Shown here one piece after another: positions 57,619 through 60,055 of a stretch of DNA of 64,000 nt (positions are counted from its first letter, which is position 1; each line of letters begins with the position of its first letter). The stretch comes from Terriglobia bacterium. GTDB taxonomy: Bacteria; Acidobacteriota; Terriglobia; JAJPHL01. The notes below the pieces were generated by a model. It did not search any database, had not been told where the DNA came from, and saw only the letters and a list, made by a program, of their open reading frames with translations. Location: contig JAJPHL010000010.1 of the NCBI GenBank assembly GCA_021325275.1, positions 1 to 64,000 on the forward strand, read 5' to 3'. The position numbers and the translations under genes were made by a program.

Positions 57619-59111
57619 TCATATCGCGGATAGGTCCAAGATCTGCGGACCGAGCGCCGCGAGAAAGCTGCGGTCGTGCGACACGGCGATGATCGTGCCA
57701 GGATAGCGAATCAACGCTTGTTCCAGCGCTTCTTGCGCTTCGATTTCCAGATAATTTGTCGGTTCGTCAAGCAGCAGAAGATTTGCGCCGCACGAGAGCA
57801 GTCGCGCCAACGCGGTCTTTGCGCGCTCCCCGGGACTCAGCTCGCGCAGCGGACGCGCGATGCAGTCGGGCCGGACCTTCAGGCAGGCGAGCATCATGCG
57901 ACTCAGCGTTGAAGTGCTGCAAACGTCGATTGGCGTGCGATCGACGTCGAGCGCTTCCACTTCCTGCGAGAAGTAACCGGTGTCGACGTTGGCGCCGAAT
58001 TGCACTTCGCCGGTCGTCGCAGGTTCCAGCCCGAGCAAGATGCGCAGCAGCGTGGTTTTCCCGGATCCGTTCGCTCCGGCGATGGCGAGTCGCGCGCCGC
58101 GCGGCAGATGGAAGGTCACGTTTGCGAAGAGCGCGCGGCTGCCGAACGATTTTCCAAGATCACGAGCGGAAAGGGCGATGTCTCCCGAGCGGCGGACCGC
58201 CGAGAAATCGAGGTCCGGAATCGGTTGTTCGACCCACGGCTTTTCCACTTCCTCAAATTGCGCCGCGCGTTCCTTCAAGAGTCGCCCGGTGCGCGCGACC
58301 TTCTTGGCTTTGCGCGCGTAGAAATCGTTGTCGCCTTTTTCGCCGGCCGGGGGCGCCGAGATCTTGCGGGCCAGCGCGGCGCGACGTTCGCTGGCGCGCT
58401 CGAACGCGGCTTTGCGCCGTTGCGCGCCTTCGTACTTGTCCCACGCTTGACGCTCGAGCACCGCGCGACGCTCTAAGTAGTCGCGATAGCCGCCGGAAAG
58501 ACGCGAGCTGACCCACGGACTATTTCGATCACGCCTGATGCCACGCGATCAAGCAGCGTGCGGTCGTGCGATACGAAGACACACGCGCGCCCGTGATCAC
58601 GGCGCGTTAATTCTTCTTCGAGCCACTGGCGACCGGCAATGTCGAGGTGATTCGTCGGCTCGTCGAGCAGCAGCAGATCGGATGGTGTGAACAACGCGCG
58701 TGCCAATGCCGCGCGTGTCCGCTGGCCGCCGCTGAGACACGCAAGCGGCAGCGAGCGGTCGCCGGCGCTAAAGCCGAATCCACCAAGAATGCGTTCGGCA
58801 CACGATTCCGCCGCGTAGTCCTCGGGATCGCGGTTGGCGGAGAGCACGTAGTCGAACAGCGTGAGCGCCGCATCCGGTGCGGAGGTCTCCTGCGACAAAT
58901 ACGACACGCGCAGTCCACGCCGCCGGATCATTGTGCCCGATGTCGACTGCAACTCTCCGGAGAGCAACTTCAGCAGCGAGGATTTGCCCGCGCCGTTTGG
59001 TCCCACCAGCGCCAAGCGATCGCCCGGATCGACGGCAAACGTGAGGTCGCTGAAAAGGTCGATGGTAGACGGGTAATGAAAAGAGACTTCCGAAACGGTC
59101 AGTAATGACAT
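57619..59111 (-). pseudogene. ABC-F ATPase split by a one-base frameshift
   Basis: Two abutting frames together make one ABC-F protein of about 490 residues. The first (58473-59111) holds ATPase domain one: Walker A VGPNGAGKSSLLKL, signature LSGGQRTRAALARAL and DEPTNHLDIAGRQWLEEEL. The second (57619-58461) holds the linker and domain two: AGANGSGKTTLLRILLGLEP, LSPGERAKTALARL and DEPTNYLEIEAQEALEQALI. At about 58491-58496 (GCCGG) the first frame runs FPAAIATT to a stop; adding one G would read FPGGYRDYLERR, as ABC-F linkers do. No slippery run is present, so a mutation or assembly error is likelier than programmed shifting. ABC-F proteins act on the ribosome, often in antibiotic protection. 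Confidence 0.85.
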
Positions 59112-59224
59112 GGCCCACCGGCAGATGTGCCGGGATTACAGCGAGGTTGCGGTGAACGGACGGGGCGATGTCGTTAGATTTTCACTGTGAGATAAGGATA
59201 CCACGGCCGGCGCGCATTTGCAGT

Positions 59225-59336
59225 TGTCAGAACCATTCGCGGTAGCGAATGGGCTCGCTGGCCTGTCACCCAACGCAGACGTCCGAGCTTGCGGACAGGC
59301 CAGCGCGCCCATCCGCTACCGCGGATGGTTCTGACA
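59225..59336. repeat. Compound palindromic element upstream of purQ
   Basis: The 30-base ends (59225-59254 and 59307-59336) are reverse complements except at two positions. Each end also folds alone: CCATTCGC-GGTA-GCGAATGG on the left and CCATCCGC-TACC-GCGGATGG on the right. The two differences are a matched pair that keeps the right-hand hairpin perfect. An inner stem GCTGGCCTGTC/GACAGGCCAGC lies between. It ends 26 bases before the purQ -10. Confidence 0.8.
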
Positions 59337-59362
59337 GCGCATGCGGCCCACACGCGTTGAGT

Positions 59363-59368
59363 TATAAT
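59363..59368 (+). promoter_or_regulatory. Perfect TATAAT six bases before the purQ GTG
   Basis: TATAAT, six bases, then GTG at 59375. The geometry is the same as at 26250-26262. It is the only visible promoter for purQ-purL-purF. Confidence 0.55.
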
Positions 59369-59374
59369 TCTTTT

Positions 59375-60055
59375 GTGCCCACAAAATTTGGCGTGGTTGT
59401 TTTTCCTGGCAGCAACTGCGACGATGACGCGCTCCAGGCCGTGCGCCGTGGTGTCGGCGGTGTCGCCGATTTCATCTGGCACGGCTCGGAAGATTTGAAC
59501 GGCGCGGACGTCATTATTCTTCCCGGCGGATTTGCCTACGGCGACTACCTGCGCACCGGCGCCATCGCGCGATTTTCTCCGGTGATGTGCTCGGTTGCGA
59601 AGTTTGCGGCGAGCGGGGGAGTCGTATTGGGCATTTGCAACGGATTTCAGATTTTGCTCGAAGCCGGATTGCTACCCGGCGCGATGCTGAAGAATCGCGG
59701 ATCGCATTTTGTCTGCAAGCCCGTCGCGATGCGCGTGGAAAATAATCGCTTACCGTTCACGTCGGCGTACGAGATGGGTCAGCGGGTCACATTTCCCATC
59801 GCGCACGGCGAAGGAAATTACTTCTGCGATCCTGAAACGTTGCGCGAACTGCAACGGCGCGATCGCGTGGTCCTGCGCTATCTAGACAATCCCAATGGAT
59901 CGCTCGACGACATAGCGGGCATCGCGAACTGGGACGGCAATGTGATGGGATTGATGCCGCATCCGGAACGCGCCGCCGATCCGCTGCTGGGATCGTCGGA
60001 CGGCTTGGGGATTTTCAAGTCCTTAGTTGGCGCCATGAGCCTGACAGCACAATGA
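59375..60055 (+). CDS. purQ: Phosphoribosylformylglycinamidine synthase, glutaminase subunit
   Basis: Supplies ammonia from glutamine to PurL in step four of purine synthesis. It is a 226-residue class I amidotransferase: [40 protein letters not shown], nucleophile Cys in [18 protein letters not shown] and the His-Glu pair in LMPHPERA. The GTG at 59375 matches the family N-terminus and is right after TATAAT. Its stop overlaps the purL start (ATGA). PurS, the third subunit, is not found next to it. Confidence 0.96.

Follow-up and report, generated by a model that had tools for sequence, protein, structure and literature searches.

A palindromic doublet upstream of purQ in a Terriglobia bacterium is very probably a mobile REP doublet of the class 3 Y1 transposase kind

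A palindromic element of 112 bp lies between purQ and a divergent ABC-F type ATPase gene in the genome of a Terriglobia bacterium (assembly GCA_021325275.1). It was first described from the letters of one 64,000-nucleotide stretch (contig JAJPHL010000010.1, positions 1 to 64,000, here called the window). The preliminary description proposed that its ends are inverted copies apart from two paired changes, that these changes leave a perfect small hairpin in each arm, and that the hairpins are under selection in a REP-type or RNA element directly before the purQ promoter. This raises the question of whether the hairpins are kept for the sake of the neighboring purine gene or belong to something that moves around the genome.

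The element and its position

The features of the locus are listed in Table 1. Matches to the arm in the window are limited to TGTCAGAACCATTCGCGGTAGCGAATGGG (59225-59253, + strand) and TGTCAGAACCATCCGCGGTAGCGGATGGG (59308-59336, - strand), where shuffled sequences lead one to expect none; other matches of the arm model within the window reach at most 10.7 bits and appear to be due to chance. Each arm is 29 bases long, and the two are unlike at two positions. The left arm carries ATTCGC/GCGAAT and the right arm ATCCGC/GCGGAT, and each is a perfect 8-bp Watson-Crick stem with a GGTA loop, so the arm search and the folds bear out the structure as first described. The doublet as a whole is an inverted repeat of 56+56 nt with a complementarity of 84%, and its fold compared with shuffled sequence gives z = -14 as RNA and z = -12 as DNA. 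No close match to the center of its spacer was found elsewhere in the genome by DNA search.

Table 1. Features of the element upstream of purQ and of the genes on either side
Feature	Coordinates	Strand	Remarks
Whole REP doublet (REPIN/BIME-like)	59225..59336	.	112 bp; one of 27 inverted doublets in the genome
Left REP arm, T-type	59225..59253	+	Foot CAGA 59228-59231; hairpin 59233-59252 (CCATTCGC-GGTA-GCGAATGG)
Right REP arm, C-type	59308..59336	-	Hairpin 59309-59328 (CCATCCGC-GGTA-GCGGATGG, - strand); foot CAGA 59330-59333 (-)
Doublet spacer	59254..59307	.	Inner inverted repeat CGCTGGCCTGTC (59256-59267) / GACAGGCCAGCG (59294-59305)
TATAAT, possible purQ -10 box	59363..59368	+	Outside the element; not called by promoter scan
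purQ (phosphoribosylformylglycinamidine synthase, glutaminase subunit)	59375..60055	+	Likely GTG start; not part of the element
ABC-F type ATPase gene, divergent from purQ	57619..59111	-	Reading frame broken near 58470; not part of the element

A dispersed repeat family in the host genome

The host genome was searched as a draft of 6.86 Mb in 75 contigs that is 97.6% complete. A DNA search found the arm at more than 30 places, and 62 arms scored E<=0.01 against a covariance model for which 30 distinct arms had served as input. The preliminary description had suggested a genome-wide covariance search, in which many copies with compensatory changes would speak for a REP-type element, and this is the result that was obtained. 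The arm set was gathered by sequence similarity alone, with no paired stem required. In it, 92.9% of the stem cells are paired, and both sides have changed in six of the eight stem pairs, above all 500 shuffles; cells with changes on both sides number 26, compared with 9.6 +- 3.0 in the shuffles. The stem pair flagged at the purQ locus is U-A in 17 arms and C-G in 13, and is unpaired in none. Since these cells count sequences and not events, they demonstrate constraint and not the number of independent changes. A good part of the stem departures is uncompensated, which fits decay after insertion, so the constraint does not act on every copy.

Next to the stem is a foot region that reads GTCAGAA, in which C4, G6, and A7 are invariant in the arm alignment and A5 is variable. 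The CAGA foot ends one base short of the stem and fits the tetranucleotide CnGA, and GTCAGAA is not the GT[AG]G foot of the canonical class 2 TnpA-REP (E. coli type).

All 27 doublets in the host genome are inverted, with the arms face to face, and they come in sizes of 60-72, 81-82, 112 (the window copy), 153-182, and 208 bp. Every one of the six doublets of 81-112 bp, including the one at purQ, pairs a T-type arm with a C-type arm. As the exact difference between the two arms recurs in five other short-spacer doublets, its origin most likely lies with the subtype, from which the purQ copy inherited it, and not at purQ itself. The proposed selection on the small hairpins is therefore real for the family, as the covariation shows, while the paired changes probably did not arise at the purQ site; the hairpin constraint probably belongs to the mobile family and is not special to the purine gene. 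Most doublets of 153-182 bp consist of two T-type arms and have much inner sequence in common. Several of these long doublets (L033-L045) carry outer inverted repeats, GTCCTAAT..TGC and GC..AAATTAGGAC, as if a REP doublet were nested in a larger unit, MITE-like and roughly 235 bp long.

The copies are found mostly between genes. According to a simple gene caller based on codon usage, for which the window was the training set, 25 of the 31 analyzed sites lie outside any gene; in the other six the overlap is with a gene end and does not exceed 41 nt. Convergent neighbors are less common beside the copies than divergent or tandem ones, a pattern at odds with a terminator.

Relatives and a linked transposase clade

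In other genomes, more than 116 stretches contain the core of the repeat, GTCAGAACC-N4-GCGGTAGC-N4-GGG. With few exceptions their names are Pyrinomonadaceae, Blastocatellia, or Acidobacteria, and essentially all are from Acidobacteriota. The core is abundant in the Pyrinomonadaceae; ten of the core-bearing genomes have 3 to 65 cores each, and 0 for the reversed-pattern control. Across the phylum, 19 of 396 sampled genomes contain the core, namely, the host genome and 18 of one other family; weaker matches to the arm model were seen in two genomes of the host's class. In one other genome of the host's order, the covariance model found no arm, and purQ gave no match at the threshold used. With no close relative to compare, no empty site for a doublet could be shown. 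A word search found no paper on such repeats in Blastocatellia.

The link to an enzyme comes from twenty regions around Y1 transposase genes (PF01797) of core-bearing genomes. Ten of these genes are flanked directly on both sides by hairpin repeats with a GTCAG[AT]ACC head. They make up 10 of the 13 genes of one Y1 clade, compared to none of the seven Y1 genes of other clades, and the clade members without flanking repeats (L216, L229, and L233) are partly distant. At one locus (L215), the doublets on the flanks of the transposase gene have two different arms, each of them paired. Proteins of the repeat-flanked clade are about 170 aa long and have NHVH, PWA, and YVxxxQ motifs. All 11 aligned members match Y1_Tnp; the member shown in detail falls below the NCBIfam cut-offs, and a profile of the clade found no match by sequence among solved structures.

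Class 3 TnpA-Y1 proteins have NHVH, W[TA], and YV...Q motifs, and on the flanks of their genes lie atypical structures whose foot is CnGA (Quentin et al. 2018, PMC6006769). The class occurs in Acidobacteria, with about 600 copies of the structures in Solibacter usitatus, and PMC6006769 describes these proteins and their repeats as rare and atypical and as needing study. The repeat-flanked clade fits class 3, an assignment made by motifs and foot and not by a tree with reference proteins. In genomes of the host's own class, class-3-like genes (L234-L249) have different repeat families on their flanks, whose feet are related; examples are CAGAGCCGCGACCGT and ACCGAGCCGCGAC.

Origin of the doublet

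Dispersal, doublet geometry, covariation, intergenic placement, and a shared subtype in the host, together with the linkage of repeat and transposase in relatives, make it very probable that the purQ element belongs to the class-3 kind of REP doublets (REPINs) and was spread by an IS200-like Y1 transposase whose gene now appears to be missing. Such a doublet would be two facing copies of the 29-base repeat, each with the conserved foot GTCAGAA, which includes CAGA and is single-stranded, and an 8-bp hairpin whose loop is GGTA. As is described for TnpA-REP, an IS200-type Y1 (HUH) transposase would recognize foot and hairpin in single-stranded form. It would cut at both ends of the doublet and insert it at another site, in most cases between genes. 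With an enzyme that depends on the hairpin, master copies would keep the stem paired as their sequence drifts, and new copies would inherit the paired changes, giving rise to the T-type and C-type arms. The paired changes in spreading copies would thus be due to selection on the hairpin as a transposase substrate.

The host genome has five Y1 genes. A profile of the class-3-like clade gave no match in it even at E 10, in a draft where a gap is possible. Transposase genes can be lost (PMC3733652), so a cognate gene in the same genome is not a strict requirement. The repeats look orphaned, within the limits of the draft genome; the host may once have carried the transposase and then lost it, or the gene may sit in an assembly gap. 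One could also consider that the REP-transposase unit came horizontally, spread about 60 arms, and lost its transposase, leaving orphan repeats whose arm types had served as distinct left and right ends. This history is suggested by a core common to the Pyrinomonadaceae and a host of another class yet nearly absent from the sampled genomes between, and it is put forward tentatively, as possible and somewhat doubtful.

Mobilization of the copies today, in trans, by other Y1 genes of the host (C1:76165, C40:70020, or IS200-type genes) is unlikely. The C1 and C40 proteins do match NCBIfam REP_Tyr_transpos, with 86 and 73 bits (cut-off 80). However, both genes belong to other clades than the repeat-flanked one, no such repeats were found beside them, and relatives of these genes in Blastocatellia (L218, L231, and L232) have no repeats of this family on their flanks. 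An IS200-like transposase frame, possibly shortened (L065, C14:8776-9012), lies about 1.4 kb from a REP doublet, and its closeness to that doublet counts in favor of mobilization in trans.

It is very unlikely that the element is a MITE moved by a classical DDE transposase, bounded by terminal inverted repeats and containing the palindromes by chance. The outer repeats of several 153-182 bp doublets would agree with such a unit, but the purQ copy and the 60-82 bp doublets do not have them, single arms and short doublets disperse without them, and the linkage in relatives is to Y1 transposases.

Is there a local role at purQ?

The placement of the element directly before the purQ promoter stands as a matter of position, since the TATAAT and the GTG follow it, but no promoter was called there by a simple sigma-70 scan. 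The promoter and terminator scan of 59050-59450 called nothing at all, and Rfam covariance models gave 0 matches in the window. Only 6 bases separate the TATAAT from the likely GTG, and the purQ mRNA may therefore be leaderless. The doublet is upstream of the TATAAT and so outside the likely purQ transcript. Three purQ genes from related genomes have no such element in their upstream sequence; these upstream regions display no clear common pattern. On the other side, the first ATPase half of the ABC-F gene stops near 58470, and the linker and second half are in another frame, which may reflect a pseudogene, a sequencing error, or a programmed shift.

Another reading is that selection at the purQ locus itself has shaped a regulatory RNA or hairpin, be it a terminator, processing site, or transcript stabilizer, by which purQ or its divergent ABC-F neighbor is controlled. 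The strong fold and the likely purQ promoter next to the doublet are in favor of this reading, but it is highly improbable, given a window without an Rfam family or terminator-like site, a doublet upstream of the TATAAT between divergent genes, the same repeat subtype at unrelated genes, copies with no preference for gene 3' ends, and related purQ genes that do without it. Between the two kinds of element first proposed, the evidence is thus for the REP type, and an RNA or regulatory element for purQ is unsupported. The terminator, RNA-element, and DDE-MITE candidates were all set aside, on the lack of Rfam and terminator matches, the absence of outer repeats, and the Y1 linkage in relatives. 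A local role in the expression of purQ or the ABC-F gene may exist, but nothing found here calls for one.

Comparison with known systems

In Escherichia coli, BIMEs contain two REP variants (Y and Z) and have a GTAG-type foot. The doublets described here resemble them in having two arm types, each with an intact hairpin, and are unlike them in sequence, foot, and enzyme class. With the REPINs (Bertels and Rainey 2011, PMC3116915), they have in common inverted doublets of a short palindromic repeat that are intergenic, dispersed, and predicted to form a long hairpin. REPINs, however, were defined with repeats linked to RAYTs in Pseudomonas fluorescens, whereas the present doublets have a CAGA foot and, in relatives, a link to a different transposase clade.

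The doublets are also like the class 3 TnpA-Y1 structures (PMC6006769), with a CnGA foot (here CAGA), a hairpin, high copy number, Acidobacteriota hosts, and, in relatives, repeats adjoining a transposase gene with NHVH and YVxxxQ motifs. In contrast to those systems, the host has the repeats and no class-3 gene that could be found, and its stem sequences are its own. The TIRtrons/TIRYT of Acidobacteria (Di Nocera et al. 2013, PMC3733652) also combine tyrosine transposase genes with inverted repeats, which can make up genomic families, a likeness drawn by description and not by comparison of protein clades.

What the element means

The element is ordinary in kind, and what makes it useful is its link to a transposase class that has received little study. 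The data form a clean set of a common repeat core, ten transposase genes and their adjoining repeats, and stem variants that are kept paired, with which the roles of foot and hairpin in recognition become testable. As the purQ locus illustrates, a hairpin next to a biosynthetic gene need not regulate that gene.
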